A stretch of DNA of 46,291 nt, from the IMG/VR virus record IMGVR_UViG_3300046313_000158, positions 1-46,291 of that record. The stretch is one strand, 5' to 3'. The stretch comes from a virus. Under the pieces are notes generated by a model. It made no database searches. It saw only the letters and a list, made by a program, of their open reading frames with translations, and was not told the origin of the DNA. This document shows positions 3,446 to 41,053 of this stretch, piece by piece (within the stretch, counting starts at the first letter, position 1; the number at the start of each line of letters is the position of its first letter). Made by a program: the position numbers and the translations under genes.

Positions 3446-3636
3446 TCGTTAGGTTAGGTTCAGCAAACAATTCTTAGGATCTCGTATCCACCAAGGACTG
3501 ACGATGGATACGCTGAGAGTTCGCTCTCTCCCCCACCGTCTAATGAGTTTTTCGATTTTCTCATGAAAAACAAAAAAGTAGGAAACTAACCTGTTGTTTT
3601 TAGGCAAATCTCGCCTGTTATGTGAAAGAAATTTAT
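3446..3636 (+). promoter_or_regulatory. structured 5' leader of Ro-like gene
   Basis: A leader of about 190 bases without a gene. It folds into clear local hairpins: CGTATCC pairing with GGATACG, GAGAG-TTCG-CTCTC, and an ATGAG/CTCAT stem around a T-rich loop, followed by an A-rich stretch. It could regulate the downstream gene or be an additional structured RNA. No known riboswitch class is recognised. Confidence 0.45.
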
Positions 3637-5064
3637 ATGAACACTTTTGTTAATGCCGTTGTTAATCAAGAAGCACGTACCGAAAATGGTATGCTTGCTC
3701 GTAAGTCCACTGCCAATGCTCTTGTAGACCTGTTCTTCAAAGCTGGCGCATCACGTGGCAAGAACATCACCCGAGAATTCACTGCTGCTCTAGTAGAAGA
3801 TCAAGACCTTGCCTTGCGCTTGGCTTTGTGGCTACGTGACGCACGTGGTGGTGCTGGTGAACGTGAATTGTTTCGTCAAATCATGGTTCAATTAGAAAAC
3901 ACTCGTCCAGATCTAGCTGCAAAGTTGCTGGCGAAAGTGCCAGAAGTTGGTCGTTGGGATGACTTGTTTGTCTTCAAGACTCAACCTCTGAAGGCACAAG
4001 CCTACACTATGCTTGGTGACGCTCTGCGTGCGAAGAATGGTCTGGCTGCAAAGTGGACTCCACGTAAAGGTGAGACTGCTCGAGAAATCCGTGAGTTCTT
4101 CGGTATGTCACCTAAGTTCTACCGTAAGTCTTTGGTCGAAATGACTAAAGTGGTTGAACAAAGCATGTGTGCCAAAGAATGGGACGAAATCAACTTCTCT
4201 CATGTTCCATCTGTTGCTCACGCACGTTACAAAAAGGCTTTTGGACGTAACACTTCAAAGTACGCTGAGTACGTGACTGCGTTGGTAAAGGGTGATGACC
4301 CAAAGGTGAAGGTAAATGCTGGTGCAGTATTCCCATACGATGTGTTGAAGGGTGTTATCGGTTCATACCGTAACAAGTTCAGCGCAAACGAATTGGTAGT
4401 TGTGCAAAAGCAATGGGAAGCCATGGAAAACTTCATCGGTGACGCTAACGTGTTGCCATTGGTGGACGTTTCTGGTTCAATGTCTTGCCGTGCAGGTGGT
4501 GCTGACTCCAAGTCTGTGACTACTTGTATGGACGTTGCGATCTCTCTGGGATTGTACGTTGCCGACAAGAACAAGGGTAAGTTCAAGGATACATTCCTGA
4601 CTTTCTCTGGCGAACCAGAACTGTTGCACCTGAAGGGTAACATCGTTGAGAAGTGTCAACAAATGTCATCTTCTAACTGGGGTATGAACACTAACTTGGT
4701 TAAGGCTATGGACAAGATCCTTAGTGTTGCTAAGTCTGGTCAAGTCCCTCAAGAAGAAATGCCAGAAATGCTTCTGATCATGTCAGACATGCAATTCGAT
4801 CAATGTGCTCGTTTCGACGACACTGCGATGAAGATGATGTCTCGCAAGTTCGAAGACGCAGGATACGAACTGCCAAAGATCGTGTTCTGGAATCTTAACG
4901 CTAAGGACAACGTCCCAGTTAAGTACGATACACGTGGTGTGGCTTTGGTATCTGGGTTCAGCCCAGCTATCATGGTAGCGGTTCTTGGTGGAGACACTGA
5001 GCAATTCACTCCAGAAGCAATCATGCTGAAGGCATTGATGAATCCACGTTATGACTTGGTTTAA
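3637..5064 (+). CDS. Ro60/TROVE-like (DUF2828-like) VWA protein
   Basis: About 475 residues. The N-terminal two thirds is helical and holds WLRDARGGAGERELFR and VGRWDDLF, typical of the HEAT-like ring of Ro60/TROVE and the related DUF2828 proteins. The C-terminal third is a von Willebrand A domain with an intact MIDAS: DVSGSM, a threonine in GMNTNL, and an aspartate in IMSDMQFD. Ro proteins bind Y RNAs and misfolded RNAs. The gene is flanked on both sides by structured non-coding RNA regions, which is how bacterial Ro genes and their Y RNAs are usually arranged. ATG 3637 is preferred over GTG 3622. Codon usage looks like the neighbours. Confidence 0.78.
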   Translation: MNTFVNAVVNQEARTENGMLARKSTANALVDLFFKAGASRGKNITREFTAALVEDQDLALRLALWLRDARGGAGERELFRQIMVQLENTRPDLAAKLLAKVPEVGRWDDLFVFKTQPLKAQAYTMLGDALRAKNGLAAKWTPRKGETAREIREFFGMSPKFYRKSLVEMTKVVEQSMCAKEWDEINFSHVPSVAHARYKKAFGRNTSKYAEYVTALVKGDDPKVKVNAGAVFPYDVLKGVIGSYRNKFSANELVVVQKQWEAMENFIGDANVLPLVDVSGSMSCRAGGADSKSVTTCMDVAISLGLYVADKNKGKFKDTFLTFSGEPELLHLKGNIVEKCQQMSSSNWGMNTNLVKAMDKILSVAKSGQVPQEEMPEMLLIMSDMQFDQCARFDDTAMKMMSRKFEDAGYELPKIVFWNLNAKDNVPVKYDTRGVALVSGFSPAIMVAVLGGDTEQFTPEAIMLKALMNPRYDLV

Positions 5065-10142: not shown

Positions 10143-11117
10143 ATGAAATCAGGAATCTTCATCGGACGTTTTCAACCCGTCCATCAAGGACATGTCCACG
10201 CACTGGGCATTGCCGCTTCTCAAGTAGAGAAACTCTACATCCTCGTTGGTTCTGCGAATCAATGTCGATCAATCAAAAACCCTTGGACATTCCAAGAGCG
10301 TGTACAGATGTTGCGTAACAAATTGCGTAATGCTAACATCTCCAACTACGAAATTCTCCCACTAAACGACTATCGTTACTCAGATTCTCAATGGATGTCT
10401 GATGTGCGTGCCACTGTTGACCACTATGACATGGGTGTACCAACCTTGTTTGGCCACATGAAAGAAGGTAACAACTATCTCACATGGTTCCCAGACTGGC
10501 CATTCAAGAGCATTGAGTCACAGTACAACGTAAACGCTACCGCTGTTCGTCAACGAATGTTTGATCTGAAAGATCCAGACATGCCAGAAACTGTTCAGGC
10601 TGATTATGCATTCTATGAGAAAGAGAAGGTAACCTTTGCAAACTATCCATTCCCAGAAACCCTCAACTTCAACTGTTCCGATGCCATCCTTGAATGTCAA
10701 GGACACGTCCTTCTTATCCAACGGAAGTTTGCGCCTGGGGCAGGAGCTTGGGCTTTACCTGGCGGGTTCAGGAACAGGAACGAGTCCTTTTTGGACTGCG
10801 CTATCCGAGAACTGCAAGAAGAAACCAACGTAAGAGTACCAGAAAAAGTTCTGCGTGGCTCTATCGTAAAGACTGAATTGTTCGATGACCCAACTCGTTC
10901 ATTTGGTATTCCCCGAAACACTATGGCTGTGTATATGAGAATCAACCCAAATCCTGATTTCTCGTTGCCACGTGCCAATGGTGCAGACGATGCTGCTTTG
11001 TGTAAGTGGGTGCCACTCACTGATGCACTGAATACAATTCAGATGTATGACGACCACAAAGACATCTTGTCAAAAGTAACTGGTGTTAACCCAATGCCAG
11101 CATTTTCAAAACTGTAA
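10143..11117 (+). CDS. nadM: bifunctional NMN adenylyltransferase-Nudix hydrolase
   Basis: A 324-residue two-domain protein. Residues 1-165 form a nucleotidyltransferase: GIFIGRFQPVHQGH holds the HxGH motif that binds ATP, and NVNATAVR is the ISSTxxR-like site. Residues 180-320 form a Nudix hydrolase with a complete Nudix box (GG-x5-E-x7-REL-x-EE). The enzyme joins NMN and ATP to make NAD+; the Nudix part is expected to cleave ADP-ribose-type compounds. It lies 16 bases before NAMPT, and together they form a two-step nicotinamide-to-NAD+ pathway. In other phages such pairs (NARP2) counter NAD-depleting immunity. It resembles the NatV protein of large vibriophages. Confidence 0.9.
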   Translation: MKSGIFIGRFQPVHQGHVHALGIAASQVEKLYILVGSANQCRSIKNPWTFQERVQMLRNKLRNANISNYEILPLNDYRYSDSQWMSDVRATVDHYDMGVPTLFGHMKEGNNYLTWFPDWPFKSIESQYNVNATAVRQRMFDLKDPDMPETVQADYAFYEKEKVTFANYPFPETLNFNCSDAILECQGHVLLIQRKFAPGAGAWALPGGFRNRNESFLDCAIRELQEETNVRVPEKVLRGSIVKTELFDDPTRSFGIPRNTMAVYMRINPNPDFSLPRANGADDAALCKWVPLTDALNTIQMYDDHKDILSKVTGVNPMPAFSKL

Positions 11118-11133
11118 AGATTAGGAGCTAATC

Positions 11134-12531
11134 ATGAAACTCGCAAAATCAATTATCTTGAACACCGACAGCTACAAAGTGAGTATGTTCAAACAATATC
11201 CTGCTGGCACAACTGGCGTTTATTCTTACATCGAATCTCGTGGTGGTCAATACGATCGCACACTGATGTTCGGTCTTCAAGCGTTTATTAAGGAGTATTT
11301 ACTTGACCCCATCACACAAGCCGACATTGATGTTGCAGATGAGATTCTTACAGCCCACGGCGAGCCATTTAATCGTTCGGGGTGGCAATACATCCTTGAT
11401 ACGCACAAAGGCTACTTACCTCTCGTCATTCGTGCTGTACCTGAAGGCTCTGTGGTGCCTGTCTCGAATGTACTGGCGACTGTCGAAAACACAGACCCAG
11501 AATGTTTCTGGCTGACAACTTATCTGGAAACTGCATTGCTCCGTGCCGTATGGTATGGTACAACTGTGGCAACCCAGTCTTATACTATCAAGCAAGTGAT
11601 TGCTGAATATTTGGAGAAAACTGGTGATCCATCTACTATTGATTTTAAGCTGCACGATTTTGGTGCTCGAGGTGTTAGCAGCATGGAGTCTGCTGGCATT
11701 GGTGGGGCGGCTCACCTCGTCAACTTTATGGGCTCTGATACTATCACTGGCGTCCTCTATGCTCGTGAGTATTACAACGGTGGCATTGCTGGTTTTAGTA
11801 TCCCTGCAGCAGAGCACAGTACAATCACTTCTTGGGGTCGTGCTGGTGAAGTAGATGCATACCGTAACATGCTGAAGCAATTCGGTCGTGAAGGTTCTAT
11901 CCTTGCTGTTGTGTCTGATAGCTATGACGTGTACAACGCTGCAGAGAAACTCTGGGGTGAAGAACTGCGTGACGAAGTTATCGCAAGTGGTGCCACTGTT
12001 GTGATTCGTCCTGACTCTGGTGACCCTGTTGTTGTGAACCGTAAGTTGATCGAGATCCTTGGTCAGAAGTTCGGTTACACTACCAACGCCAAAGGATTCA
12101 AAGTGTTGAACAACGTTCGCCTGATCCAAGGTGATGGTGTGAACGAATTGTCTATCCGTTCCATCCTTGGTGCCTTCATGGCAATGGGTTGGTCTGCTGA
12201 TAACATTGCGTTCGGTATGGGTGGTGCATTGCTCCAGATCGTCAACCGAGACACACAACGATTCGCTATGAAGTGTTCGTCTATCCAGATCAATGGCGTG
12301 TGGCAGGATGTCGTAAAAGACCCTGTAACCGACTCTGGAAAACGTTCTAAAGGTGGTCGAGTGACTCTGTGGCAGTCTGGTGGTGAGTTCGCTTCTGGCG
12401 TCCGTCCACCTTCTGGTTGGACTGATCGAGGCTTTGGAGGCTGGACAGAGGCTATGCAGACCGTGTTCCGTGATGGCCAGATCATCCGTGAATACGACTT
12501 CGCAGAGGTTCGAGCTAACGCTAAAAAGTAA
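11134..12531 (+). CDS. nadV: nicotinamide phosphoribosyltransferase (NAMPT)
   Basis: A 465-residue protein of usual NAMPT length. It opens with ILNTDSYKVSMFKQYP, and has LHDFGARGVSSMESAG (catalytic histidine region), VSDSYDVYNA, VIRPDSGDP and IQGDGVNELS, all classical NAMPT segments contacting phosphoribosyl pyrophosphate and nicotinamide. It converts nicotinamide to NMN, which the upstream gene adenylates to NAD+. A purine-rich site (TTAGGAGC) precedes the ATG. A strong hairpin follows the stop, so the pair forms a discrete operon. Confidence 0.95.
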   Translation: MKLAKSIILNTDSYKVSMFKQYPAGTTGVYSYIESRGGQYDRTLMFGLQAFIKEYLLDPITQADIDVADEILTAHGEPFNRSGWQYILDTHKGYLPLVIRAVPEGSVVPVSNVLATVENTDPECFWLTTYLETALLRAVWYGTTVATQSYTIKQVIAEYLEKTGDPSTIDFKLHDFGARGVSSMESAGIGGAAHLVNFMGSDTITGVLYAREYYNGGIAGFSIPAAEHSTITSWGRAGEVDAYRNMLKQFGREGSILAVVSDSYDVYNAAEKLWGEELRDEVIASGATVVIRPDSGDPVVVNRKLIEILGQKFGYTTNAKGFKVLNNVRLIQGDGVNELSIRSILGAFMAMGWSADNIAFGMGGALLQIVNRDTQRFAMKCSSIQINGVWQDVVKDPVTDSGKRSKGGRVTLWQSGGEFASGVRPPSGWTDRGFGGWTEAMQTVFRDGQIIREYDFAEVRANAKK

Positions 12532-12547
12532 ACCTAAAGTTTACTTA

Positions 12548-12576
12548 GAAAGACCCCACACGAAGTGGGGTCTTTC
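12548..12576 (+). terminator. strong hairpin terminator
   Basis: A 12-bp perfect stem: GAAAGACCCCAC pairs with GTGGGGTCTTTC around a five-base loop. The T-run lies within the stem end and is weak after it. It closes the NAD salvage operon. Confidence 0.78.
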
Positions 12577-12586
12577 AATTTAGTTG

Positions 12587-12615
12587 TTGACACTTTTGCA
12601 GATCGGCTGTATAAT
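12587..12615 (+). promoter_or_regulatory. sigma-70-type promoter
   Basis: TTGACA, 17-base spacer with TTTTGCAGATCGGC, TATAAT. Almost ideal. It drives the genes from 12647 to 14313. Confidence 0.87.
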
Positions 12616-12646
12616 AACTACAGTTGATTAGGAAAGAAAGACCCAA

Positions 12647-13036
12647 ATGTATACCTTTAACCCTCTGGCTACCATCCCCGCTGACCATACTGGATTCGGT
12701 ATTATCGTCGGTCTCTGCATCTTTATCACCCTCGTTGTGTTGATGAATGAAGCTGAGTTATTCTTTCATTGGTTCTTTGTAGCTACTGTCACTTGTGTCC
12801 TTGCTTATTTCGTTTCGTATAGCTGGACTGATCAGACTCCAAAGACATTCGTGAATGAGAAGGTTACTGCTACATTCGTCGGGTTCGAAGCTGAAGGTTA
12901 CAAAGAAAAGTCTGGTAAGAGTTACGTTGACAAACACTACACTTATGTGGTGTATAATGTAAATGGTAGTAACGTCTTGCTGTCTGCTAGCACTGGTCAG
13001 ACTTACCCACAAACTGCAATCCTGTACAAGAACTAA
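12647..13036 (+). CDS. membrane protein, two transmembrane segments
   Basis: A 129-residue protein with two hydrophobic segments (about residues 17-33 and 40-58) followed by a soluble domain of about 70 residues with strand-forming repeats. Probably an inner-membrane protein with a cytoplasmic or periplasmic C-terminal domain. Family not recognised. First gene behind the 12587 promoter. Confidence 0.7.
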   Translation: MYTFNPLATIPADHTGFGIIVGLCIFITLVVLMNEAELFFHWFFVATVTCVLAYFVSYSWTDQTPKTFVNEKVTATFVGFEAEGYKEKSGKSYVDKHYTYVVYNVNGSNVLLSASTGQTYPQTAILYKN

Positions 13037-13045
13037 GGAGTTATC

Positions 13046-13270
13046 ATGAGTGAAGGTTATAACACTGCTGAAGAAGCCATCCAAGCTGGTATTGATGCTG
13101 GTGGCGTGGAAGAGTTTGACGGTCAAAACTGTATGGACTACGATGAAGAAGTAGTCTGCGATGGTTGGGATGGAGTGGATCGTCGTTGTGACTGTGGTAA
13201 TCGTCGTGTCAGCTGGGAAACTGGTCAATACGATAATGGTAAATTCTACGCATATGGCGTGGCTTATTAA
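13046..13270 (+). CDS. acidic Cys-containing small protein
   Basis: A 74-residue acidic protein with four cysteines, the last two as CDCG, preceded by aspartate-rich sequence (MDYDEEVVCDGWDGVD). It could bind a metal but the spacing matches no known finger. AAGGAG precedes the start. It lies between the membrane protein and the RNA ligase in the same transcript. Confidence 0.65.
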   Translation: MSEGYNTAEEAIQAGIDAGGVEEFDGQNCMDYDEEVVCDGWDGVDRRCDCGNRRVSWETGQYDNGKFYAYGVAY

Positions 13271-13281
13271 GGAAATTGAAA

Positions 13282-14313
13282 ATGCGTAAACTTGCTACTA
13301 TTCGTCGTATTGATGAACTGAACCCCATCGAAGGTGCAGACAAAATCGAAGTTGCTGTTATCGGTGGTTGGAAGGTCGTGGCTCAGAAGGGTCTCTACGA
13401 AGTTGGTGACCTTGCTGTGTACTTCGAGATCGACTCTTGGATCCCGACTGAACTTGCTCCATTCCTGTCTAAAGGTAAAGAGCCACGTGAGTTCGAAGGC
13501 GTAAAGGGTGAACGACTGCGCACTATCAAACTGCGTGGCCAACTGTCTCAAGGTCTGCTGATGCCGTTGCGTGAGATCAAGTCTGACTTTCAAATGGATG
13601 CATTTGTTGAAGGTGACGACCTAACTGAGATCCTTGGCATCAAGAAGTGGGAAAAGCCAATGAACGCACAACTTGCTGGTGTGTGTAAGGGTAACTTTCC
13701 GTCTCTGATTCCAAAGACTGATCAAGAGCGTTGCCAGAACCTGAAGAAAGAAATCGTTGCTGCCAACGAAGCTGGTCTGAAGTTCGAAATCACTGAGAAG
13801 CTGGAAGGCTCTTCAATGACTGTGTACCAGATCAAAGGTGAGTTTGGTGTCTGCTCTCGTAACATGGATCTGAAAGAAACCGAAGGTAACTCTTTCTGGG
13901 CTACTGCTCGTAAAGATGGCATCCAAGAAAAGATGATGGCTGTTGATGAGTACTGGGACTTTGCTATCCAAGGTGAGCTGATTGGACCAGGAATTCAAGG
14001 CAACATCTACAATCTGAAGGAATGCGAGTTCCGTGTGTTTGATGTGTACAACATCCAAGCTGGTGAATACCTGCTGCCACAGGCTCGTCGTCGTCTGATC
14101 GAGCAGATGGGTCTGAAGCATGTGCCTGTGCTTGCACATACTGCTGATATGTACGACACTCTTGGTCTGACTGACATTCCACAACTGCTTGCATTCGCTG
14201 AAGGTAAGTCTCTGCTTGGTGATACTGAGCGTGAAGGTATCGTATTCAAGCAAGTCGATGGTGGTATGTCTTTCAAGGCTATCTCTAACAAGTATCTGCT
14301 TGGTGAAAAGTGA
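13282..14313 (+). CDS. ATP-dependent RNA ligase, Rnl5/DraRnl-like
   Basis: A 343-residue protein with a covalent nucleotidyltransferase motif EKLEGSS, K173 being the AMP-accepting lysine. Downstream are FGVCSRNMDL (motif III-like), IQGELIGPGIQGN (motif IIIa/IV region) and EGIVFKQ (motif IV), ending with FKAISNKYL (motif V). The N-terminal domain of about 130 residues before the adenylation domain is the architecture of the Deinococcus RNA ligase family rather than T4 Rnl1 or Rnl2. It seals RNA nicks. Possible roles are repair of tRNA cleaved by host defences or joining of the structured RNAs encoded here; both are inference. Confidence 0.85.
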   Translation: MRKLATIRRIDELNPIEGADKIEVAVIGGWKVVAQKGLYEVGDLAVYFEIDSWIPTELAPFLSKGKEPREFEGVKGERLRTIKLRGQLSQGLLMPLREIKSDFQMDAFVEGDDLTEILGIKKWEKPMNAQLAGVCKGNFPSLIPKTDQERCQNLKKEIVAANEAGLKFEITEKLEGSSMTVYQIKGEFGVCSRNMDLKETEGNSFWATARKDGIQEKMMAVDEYWDFAIQGELIGPGIQGNIYNLKECEFRVFDVYNIQAGEYLLPQARRRLIEQMGLKHVPVLAHTADMYDTLGLTDIPQLLAFAEGKSLLGDTEREGIVFKQVDGGMSFKAISNKYLLGEK

Positions 14314-37053: not shown

Positions 37054-37536
37054 GTGGAACAAATCGTAGTAGTACCGAATGTAATAACTAATGAAATGTG
37101 TGCTCAGCTAATAGCAGATGCAAACTTTTCTAATACCAGTTCAGCACCACCAGCATTCGACTATAAAGATTATAATAACCTAGAACGACGACCAATGAAT
37201 GAACATAGTATCGTTAAGTATCTGGCAGAAACTTTTAAGTGGAACGTAGAGAATGCTCCGATAATTTGGTATCGTAAAGGATCATCAAATACATTACACT
37301 GTGATAACTCTATCATTAAAGATGGAGAAATTATCAAGATTACTGAATGGACGTACTCTGTCATTATATTCTTAAATGACAATTTCTCTGGAGGTGAACT
37401 TGTTTACCCGAATCAAGGTCTTACCGTAAAACCAACAATTGGAACTATGGTTGTTGCACCAGCAGGAATTGACTATCCGCATTATGTGACTGCTACTTCT
37501 TCAGATAGATATGTATTAGTGTTGAGATTAATTTGA
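37054..37536 (+). CDS. 2OG-Fe(II) oxygenase
   Basis: A 160-residue dioxygenase starting with GTG immediately after the previous stop. Iron site H82-C-D84 (LHCDNS), distal H143 (YPHYVT), and R152 (SSDRYVLVLR) as 2OG contact; YSVIIFLNDNFSGGELVYP is the typical central segment. It is the shortest and most canonical oxygenase of the set. The tmRNA promoter overlaps its last codon. Confidence 0.85.
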   Translation: MEQIVVVPNVITNEMCAQLIADANFSNTSSAPPAFDYKDYNNLERRPMNEHSIVKYLAETFKWNVENAPIIWYRKGSSNTLHCDNSIIKDGEIIKITEWTYSVIIFLNDNFSGGELVYPNQGLTVKPTIGTMVVAPAGIDYPHYVTATSSDRYVLVLRLI

Positions 37537-37561
37537 CACACAACTTTTTATAATGTATAAT
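37533..37561 (+). promoter_or_regulatory. promoter for tmRNA
   Basis: TTGACA, 17-base spacer, TATAAT: the best consensus promoter in the window. The transcript would start near 37568, just before the acceptor piece of the tmRNA. Confidence 0.88.
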
Positions 37562-37570
37562 TATTGATAT

Positions 37571-37965
37571 TGCTGTATGAAGCAAAGAGAAAAGTGTTCT
37601 GGACGGGGGTTCGACTCCCCCCATCTCCACCAAAAGTAATCACCGAAGTGACTAGGAATTAAAGCGGTCATCGAGTTAGAGGTTCCAGAAGAAACAGCTG
37701 GGTAAGAAGTGTATACAGCCTCCTTTAACCGACCACTGAGGCGAGTGGTTGAGAATGCAACGATTACTTTTGATGGGGATGCCATGGTTTCGACAGAGCA
37801 ACAAGTAAACAAGTGGACAGCACGGGAATGTGAAACCCGTAGGATTGGGGTAACTCGGTCGAAGAAGCAAAAGAAGTAAATGCAAACGACACAGTCTACG
37901 CATTAGCAGCCTAAACGCTGCTTAGGGTTTCGGTAGGTTTCCTCGTAACAGAATAACCTACCAAC
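37571..37965 (+). ncRNA. ssrA: circularly permuted two-piece tmRNA
   Basis: The acceptor piece comes first. Its T-arm is GGGGG-TTCGACT-CCCCC (37605-37621), then CATCTCC, A and CCA end at 37632. The coding piece starts at 37775 with GGGGATG, which pairs with CATCTCC to rebuild the 7-bp acceptor stem, followed by the usual GGTTTCGAC. A P2 helix forms between CAGAGCA of the coding piece and TGTTCTG (near 37596) of the acceptor piece. The tag frame (37882-37914) begins at a GCA resume codon and encodes ANDTVYALAA then TAA. The 142-base linker is closed by AAAAGTAATC pairing with GATTACTTTT and should be removed by processing. A GGTAGGTT/AACCTACC hairpin follows the tag. The 3' end is approximate. 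Permuted tmRNAs occur in alphaproteobacteria, some betaproteobacteria and cyanobacteria; the short tag fits the beta type. Confidence 0.93.
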
Positions 37966-38039
37966 TTTATTATGCCAGCCACATACTGTGCCAGCCATAT
38001 AATTTTAACTTAATTAAAATTTTAGGAAAATAAAATAAA

Positions 38040-38612
38040 ATGAAATTGAAAATGTTAGTAGCTGCATTATTGGTAGCTGGTTCTTCTATCGCAAGCGCAC
38101 AGTCTTCTATGACTGTAGGATATGCCTTACAAGACGACGTTAGTCCAGCCGTGCAAAAGCACGTTAATTCTTTGCGAGTTCAAACACGATTGTTTAGTAA
38201 CGTTGATGGTGACCTTGGTATCTCTGCAACTACTGCAGACGTAGCAAATACTATCACGAATCGTTATGAAGCAGGTTTGACATATAGCCAACCCTTGACA
38301 TCATGGTCTTCTGCTGCTGTTCGTGCTGCTTATGGTTATAAACAGTCTTCTGGTAAAGCAGAATTTAACTATTACTCTGTAGAACCATCTGTTTCTATTA
38401 AGACACCAGTTGAAGGTTTGTCTGCTAAAGTTGGTTACCGCATGCGTGATGCCGTAAACCCATCTACTCTAGCTGCTGATCAAAACAACACAGTTCGTTA
38501 TCAAGTTGCTTATGCATTGACTAAGCAAGATCGAATTGCTGTTGGTTATGATATCCAACGTGGTGATAGTGCGAACAAAACTATCGCATTGAACTACACA
38601 CGAGGTTTCTAA
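38040..38612 (+). CDS. outer-membrane beta-barrel protein
   Basis: A 190-residue protein with a signal peptide (MKLKMLVAALLVAGSSIASA, cleavage after ASA) and a mature part of alternating amphipathic strands (NRYEAGLTYSQPLTSWSSAA, VRYQVAYALTKQDRIAVGY). It ends in aromatic-x-x-x-Phe (NYTRGF), the outer-membrane assembly signal recognised by BamA. At about 170 mature residues it could be an 8-stranded barrel. A phage-encoded outer-membrane protein may change receptor access after infection; this is inference. Confidence 0.78.
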   Translation: MKLKMLVAALLVAGSSIASAQSSMTVGYALQDDVSPAVQKHVNSLRVQTRLFSNVDGDLGISATTADVANTITNRYEAGLTYSQPLTSWSSAAVRAAYGYKQSSGKAEFNYYSVEPSVSIKTPVEGLSAKVGYRMRDAVNPSTLAADQNNTVRYQVAYALTKQDRIAVGYDIQRGDSANKTIALNYTRGF

Positions 38613-38876
38613 ATGAACGTTACTCCATTGAAGGATAGAGTTCTCGTCGCAGAGAACAAACGTGAGAACACTACAGAATCTGGTATTGTCTTACAGGGTG
38701 CAGGTTTCGATCAATCGAAGTCTGGTACTGTTTTAGCCATTGGTCCAGATGTCACAGATGTTAAAGTTGGTGATGTGATTTATCTGGAATGGAATAAAGC
38801 AGCAGTGGTCAAAATTGGTGATGCACAACGTGTTATTATCAAACAAGAGAACATTGTTGCTGTCTTAGAACAATGA
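38613..38876 (+). CDS. groES: GroES-like co-chaperonin
   Basis: An 87-residue protein: MNVTPLKDRVLVAENKRE, the mobile-loop region TTESGIVLQG, then KSGTVLAIGPDV, VKVGDVIYL and a closing IIKQENIVAVLE. These are the standard segments of Cpn10. It should cap GroEL, replacing or adapting host GroES for folding phage proteins, as T4 gp31 does. It is closer to bacterial GroES than gp31 is. Starts right after the outer-membrane gene stop. Confidence 0.92.
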   Translation: MNVTPLKDRVLVAENKRENTTESGIVLQGAGFDQSKSGTVLAIGPDVTDVKVGDVIYLEWNKAAVVKIGDAQRVIIKQENIVAVLEQ

Positions 38877-40495: not shown

Positions 40496-41053
40496 ATGAT
40501 GCAAAAAATGAATCTTCAATTGAAGGAAGAAAGCTCTAAACATGCGTTCTATCTGATGATGGAAGAAATTTCACTCAATACGGTTAAGGGTGCTGTTGAG
40601 TGGATCTTTGAAGCAAACTTTGGTGAAGAAAAACCAGAGTTGTTGAACTTGATTATTACATCTCCAGGTGGTGACTTGAATGCTGCGTTTGCGTTGATTG
40701 ACGTTATGCGTGGTTCTTCTATTCCAGTACGAACAATTGGTCTTGGCCAAATTGCTTCTGCAGGACTTATGATTTTCATCGCTGGTGACAAGGGTATGCG
40801 TATCTTGACACCGAACACTTCTATTCTTTCTCACCAGTACTCATGGGGTGCTTTTGGTAAGGAACACGAATTGTTCGCAACTGTTAAAGAATTCGATCTT
40901 ACCACTAAGAAGATGACTGCTCACTATAAAAAGTGTACTGGTCTTTCAGAAAAACAAATTCGGGACGTGCTCTTGCCACCACAGGATATTTGGTTGAGTC
41001 CAGCCGAAGCTAAAAAGTTAGGAATCTGCGATGACGTTAAGGAACTTTCTTAA
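40496..41053 (+). CDS. clpP: ClpP-like serine protease
   Basis: A 185-residue protein with a complete ClpP triad: S88 (GQIASAG), H113 (LSHQYS) and D164 (PPQDIWLSPAEA), and the oxyanion-loop SPGGDLNAA. Length is close to bacterial ClpP without a propeptide. It would form the proteolytic barrel for ClpX or ClpA. With a phage tmRNA 2.5 kb upstream, tagged peptides could be degraded by a phage or mixed protease; T4-like phages may also use ClpP relatives as prohead proteases, but the triad and sequence here are ClpP-like. Confidence 0.9.
   Translation: MMQKMNLQLKEESSKHAFYLMMEEISLNTVKGAVEWIFEANFGEEKPELLNLIITSPGGDLNAAFALIDVMRGSSIPVRTIGLGQIASAGLMIFIAGDKGMRILTPNTSILSHQYSWGAFGKEHELFATVKEFDLTTKKMTAHYKKCTGLSEKQIRDVLLPPQDIWLSPAEAKKLGICDDVKELS

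Follow-up and report, generated by a model that had tools for sequence, protein, structure and literature searches.

What does a phage do with a tmRNA of its own, and does it matter that the gene lies upstream of one for a protease? The repeated adjacency of ClpP genes to phage two-piece tmRNAs raises a testable idea, namely that phages seize tagging and proteolysis together. We addressed this question at a locus in a 46,291-nucleotide stretch of an IMG/VR virus record, hereafter called the window.

The window encodes a circularly permuted tmRNA

A sequence-only reading of the window had proposed a phage-encoded circularly permuted tmRNA. This was borne out by ARAGORN, which called a permuted tmRNA at 37540-38005 with the tag ANDTVYALAA, and by two Rfam covariance models, both scoring above their curated cut-offs and both with the acceptor piece encoded 5' of the coding piece. 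The tmRNA_permuted model (RF04321) matched at 37571-37914 with 119.9 bits (cut-off 47, E 5.6e-23), and beta_tmRNA (RF01850), the clade-specific model retained for this RNA, matched at 37519-37969 with 88.7 bits (cut-off 84, E 1.5e-25). The proposed acceptor piece, T-arm, CCA, GGGGATG/CATCTCC pairing, P2, tag and GCA resume codon were all found, with nearly the same coordinates, and the promoter that had been described as near-perfect turned out to be a full sigma-70 consensus, 10 nt 3' of which the RF04321 match begins (Table 1). When the window tmRNA was searched by blastn against INPHARED phages, the T-arm region alone gave matches. Rfam detected no glutamine riboswitch in the window (one is present in Melnitz).

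Table 1. Features of the tmRNA-ClpP region, in window coordinates
Feature	Position	Strand	Evidence
2OG-Fe(II) oxygenase-like protein, upstream neighbour of the tmRNA	37054..37536	+	Pfam PF13640, 28.4 bits (cut-off 27)
Sigma-70 consensus promoter: TTGACA (37533-37538), 17-nt spacer, TATAAT (37556-37561)	37533..37561	+	12/12 consensus matches
Acceptor piece, tRNA-like part: P2 3' strand, T-arm, acceptor 3' strand, CCA	37594..37632	+	ARAGORN 3' tRNA domain; RF04321 alignment
CATCTCC, acceptor 3' strand	37622-37628	+	ARAGORN; RF04321 alignment
CCA end of the acceptor piece	ends 37632	+	
Spacer (intervening sequence), 142 nt	37633..37774	+	closed by AAAGTAATC/GATTACTTT; structured insert common to L044 and L100
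Coding piece, 5' part: GGGGATG acceptor 5' strand with G.U pair, D-loop, P2 5' strand	37775..37801	+	ARAGORN 5' tRNA domain; pair counts
GGGGATG, start of the coding piece	37775-37781	+	
Tag reading frame ANDTVYALAA with GCA resume codon and TAA stop	37882..37914	+	ARAGORN
3' hairpin GGTAGGTT...AACCTACC, end of the coding piece	37932..37962	+	fold; aligns to the beta_tmRNA 3' hairpin
190-aa protein with signal-peptide-like start, downstream neighbour of the tmRNA	38040..38612	+	
GroES/Cpn10 co-chaperonin homologue	38613..38876	+	Pfam PF00166, 59.2 bits (cut-off 21.1)
Viral ClpP protease subunit, triad Ser88-His113-Asp164	40496..41053	+	Pfam PF00574, 98.9 bits

The gp32 protein of the window is closest to those of Melnitz and HTVC008M (about 52% identical), and the window phage is aquatic and T4-like. 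Downstream of the tmRNA, the 190-aa protein, probably an outer-membrane barrel, had no Pfam or PHROG match; a permuted tmRNA lies close to the gene in each of its 12 viral relatives. The GroES homologue is found in only part of the relatives. Elsewhere in the window, positions 3622-5064 encode a 480-aa protein with DUF2828 and DUF7788, for which PHROGs gives an RNA-binding annotation, and positions 10143-14313 hold a NAD-salvage pair (a nicotinamide phosphoribosyltransferase and a cytidyltransferase/NUDIX protein), then an RNA ligase downstream. Since SmpB was confined to three of 50 phage records, which are near-identical 271-kb jumbo phages (L182, L194 and L203), the window phage, represented by a 46-kb fragment, probably uses host SmpB. 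The same three jumbo phages combine an ARAGORN call of a standard-form tmRNA with SmpB and ClpP.

Pairing is conserved by compensatory changes

Base pairs were counted in 131 distinct phage permuted tmRNA sequences, including that of the window. Every acceptor and T-stem pair was standard in these sequences and the P2 pairs were standard in 95-100% of them, although ARAGORN itself selects for pairing, so that the variety of pair types rather than the percentage paired is the informative evidence. Acceptor pair 5 occurs as A-U, G-C or C-G, T-stem pair 2 as GC, CG, AU or UA, and P2 pairs 6-7 in several types; compensatory changes were found at acceptor pair 5, T-stem pairs 2 and 4, and P2 pairs 3-7. 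The G.U at acceptor pair 3, the alanine identity feature read by alanyl-tRNA synthetase, is invariant (131/131). Neither a want of tmRNA-model matches nor a loss of pairing among related phages was thus encountered.

Together with the complete tag frame, the consensus promoter and the wide conservation, the compensatory changes speak against a captured tmRNA that does not work or that serves as a decoy sequestering host SmpB, a reading that we consider very unlikely even though phage DS6A has a tRNA-like domain only, able to inhibit host tmRNA (PMC4131195; PMC11915505), and two loci, L083 and L089, keep the coding piece only. In these two loci the coding piece (tag ANDNYAPFEIALAA) stands at the usual place, at L083:7114 and L089:1434, and the acceptor piece was not found in the contig; the coding piece may be a remnant, part of a split gene, or the user of an acceptor piece from the host.

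Phage permuted tmRNAs are widespread and probably form their own lineage

Phage tmRNAs had been taken to be rare in the sequence-only reading, with few or no permuted ones known. This view is contradicted by a survey that found a tmRNA in 402 of 18,146 phage genomes and 53 two-piece structures, 50 of them from aquatic samples (PMC9004378), by the 143 distinct permuted phage tmRNAs that we collected as a small sample from IMG/VR, and by five phage isolates scoring above the RF04321 cut-off (Melnitz, HTVC008M, Synechococcus phage BUCT-ZZ01, Sinorhizobium phage Phosso and Stenotrophomonas phage DLP6). The window RNA itself is of a kind known before from aquatic phages; what seems new is its setting and its spacer.

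In an unrooted tree built on the joined pieces with the spacer left out, in which many forks are open, the window belongs to a supported phage clade (99/97) that comprises 27 phage rows plus one isolate, and 25 bacterial beta sequences form a separate supported clade (99/99), with which the window tmRNA does not group. Phage tags differ from one another in their central residues (SVY, AQF, NVF, ELF, TVY) and mostly keep the AND start and the ALAA end, whereas the sampled beta-bacterial tags are near-uniform, mostly ANDERFALAA. The AND start is the contact on the SspB/ClpA side, and the ALAA end that on the ClpX side.

The earlier suggestion of capture from a betaproteobacterial-type lineage holds in part. 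Retention of the clade-specific beta_tmRNA model favours it, and an ancient capture from such a lineage is possible; a recent one is not supported, because the phage clade stands apart from the bacterial clade and the tag differs from ANDERFALAA. In the best explanation, the window tmRNA comes from a phage tmRNA lineage long separate from the bacterial ones. It is no more than a conjecture that the host has a beta-type tmRNA.

A divergent viral ClpP is encoded downstream of the tmRNA

ClpP is the protease subunit that destroys tmRNA-tagged proteins, and in the window its gene lies 2.5 kb downstream of the tmRNA. Judged from its sequence, the protein is a divergent viral ClpP: its Ser88, His113 and Asp164 are invariant in 27 relatives, PDB ClpP chains are matched by phmmer, and its score with the bacterial equivalog model TIGR00493 is 59.4 bits, below the cut-off of 308.6. 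At least 519 viral relatives were found. The N-terminus is shortened, which, with scores that fall well short of the NCBIfam cut-offs for clpP equivalogs, makes docking to ClpX uncertain; the AlphaFold model is of low confidence (pLDDT 53).

Head maturation, unrelated to tmRNA tags, was weighed as another role for this protease, given that ClpP-related head-maturation families have entries in both PHROG and NCBIfam. However, the NCBIfam head-maturation model scored 58.6 against a cut-off of 120, the gene lies outside any capsid gene cluster in the window, and near-full-length relatives encode a gp21-type prohead peptidase (PF03420) separately, on which ground a function as the prohead protease was rejected. 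A head-maturation role is highly improbable, and the viral ClpP, not being needed for that step, is probably degradative.

To describe the linkage of the two genes, two samples were used. The first, selected by ClpP, comprised 39 distinct loci with at least 3.5 kb of upstream sequence, and a permuted tmRNA was present upstream on the same strand in 38 of them: in 37 it was called by ARAGORN 1,048-2,882 nt away, and in L051 it was found by covariance model. L083, also selected by ClpP, has the coding piece of a permuted tmRNA only. The second sample comprised 64 loci with enough flank, picked by tmRNA motifs regardless of ClpP; here ClpP lay within 4 kb downstream on the same strand in 26. This placement just upstream of a viral ClpP, found almost always among the relatives, seems to be a new aspect.

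Alternatively, the tmRNA may boost ribosome rescue by itself, with ClpP as an accessory gene that has no part in this and stays nearby because one hypervariable region has passed down its gene order. Part of the linkage does reflect the common ancestry of the loci, and intervening genes (GroES, the outer-membrane-like protein) come and go. Moreover, ClpP is not required for a permuted tmRNA, since Melnitz and HTVC008M have the tmRNA without ClpP, and in BUCT-ZZ01 and Phosso both genes are present but far apart. On the other hand, tmRNA and ClpP stay in company as the intervening genes change, and the permuted tmRNAs of L132 and L365 also adjoin a ClpP-like gene, from a second and distant family (28% identical). 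We regard the unlinked reading as rather doubtful, though a serious contender, and the case for functional coupling of the tmRNA to the viral ClpP, as argued from linkage, as evenly balanced.

The spacer is enlarged and in relatives carries ORFs or tRNA-like sequence

Phage spacers are mostly 50-240 nt long, compared to 25-43 nt in bacteria, where the single outlier, L302 with 239 nt, seems to be a miscall. The window spacer folds at -35 kcal/mol (z -1.74, a weak signal), and a search of its interior with Rfam, at E up to 5, found no known RNA. Its structured insert is shared with L044 and L100 and is present in only four IMG/VR stretches. Between L044 and L100, whose contigs come from one and the same metagenome, the insert is identical over 138 nt despite different coding pieces and tags, which suggests exchange of spacers between phages.

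Fifteen spacers measure 130 nt or more, and in 8 of these an ORF takes up at least 85% of the length, against a mean of 0.04 and a maximum of 1 after shuffling of the interiors. One of these ORFs, of 62 aa, occurs in four contigs, each with a permuted tmRNA around it. The spacer ORFs, which begin right after the 5' stem arm, are those of L029, L151 and L360 (62 aa), L070 and L142 (41 aa, homologous), L107, L172 and L349; those of L029, L151, L360, L070, L142 and L172 stop at the TGA of the 3' arm. Other spacers, closed by the spacer stem, contain tRNA-like sequence (L206, L336 and L351; ARAGORN, relaxed threshold) or a T-arm (L380). In Melnitz (L400, 45984-46436), the tmRNA spacer has an unannotated ATG-started frame with GGAG upstream, running into the coding piece. 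No report of genes or tRNA-like sequences nested in a tmRNA spacer was found in the open-licence papers searched, and such nested genes appear to be unreported. Enlarged spacers, some of them gene-bearing, suggest a use for a piece normally thrown away in maturation.

Proposed function

The best reading, and a probable one, is that of a functional permuted tmRNA that would tag stalled peptides with the help of host SmpB and pass them to host ClpX and to host ClpP, viral ClpP or both. Host RNase P and 3'-processing enzymes would excise the spacer and the two pieces would pair; host alanyl-tRNA synthetase would charge the RNA, and host SmpB and EF-Tu would bring it to ribosomes that stall in the course of infection. 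The peptide left on such a ribosome would gain ANDTVYALAA and be degraded by host ClpX with host and/or viral ClpP, and the phage would thereby free ribosomes and clear truncated proteins during mRNA destruction.

It has also been speculated for Melnitz that host proteins receive the phage tag and are then proteolysed, so that their amino acids can be recycled (PMC9004378). An ALAA-ending tag and a ClpP of its own would suit bulk proteolysis, but the peptides that tmRNA tags are those on stalled ribosomes rather than completed host proteins, and the selective mechanism is without support, which leaves this proposal improbable. Beyond tagging by the window tmRNA, we tentatively extend the picture, with somewhat less than an even chance of its being right, to a large group of aquatic T4-like phages. 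These may carry a tag-and-degrade module made of a two-piece tmRNA with its own tag and a dedicated ClpP acting on that tag, and may use the excised spacer to house exchangeable cargo, be it small genes, tRNA-like RNAs or structured RNAs.

Comparison with known systems

The bacterial beta-type permuted tmRNA (RF01850) has the same gene order as the window and also a 10-residue tag ending in ALAA. It differs in its spacer (25-43 nt in 28 sampled sequences, against 142 nt), in its tag (mostly ANDERFALAA, against ANDTVYALAA) and in its separate tree clade. Stenotrophomonas phage DLP6 and its relatives share a permuted phage tmRNA with the window (136.8 bits with RF04321 in DLP6), but the DLP6 tmRNA has a short spacer and the tag ANDDSFAPMAIAA. 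The host, Stenotrophomonas, is expected to have a one-piece tmRNA. In the DLP6 record (L404), the permuted tmRNA is absent from the annotation.

The tmRNAs of mycobacteriophages and Bacillus phage G have the standard gene order, without permutation. They are phage-borne like that of the window, but one-piece (PMC4131195). Melnitz and the pelagimyophages are related T4-like aquatic phages that, like the window, have a permuted tmRNA (PMC9004378). The Melnitz tmRNA carries the tag ANDNYVPVDYALAA, is described as alphaproteobacterial-like (PMC9004378) and adjoins the late-transcription coactivator in a genome without ClpP, whereas that of the window carries ANDTVYALAA, retains the beta_tmRNA model and lies upstream of a viral ClpP.
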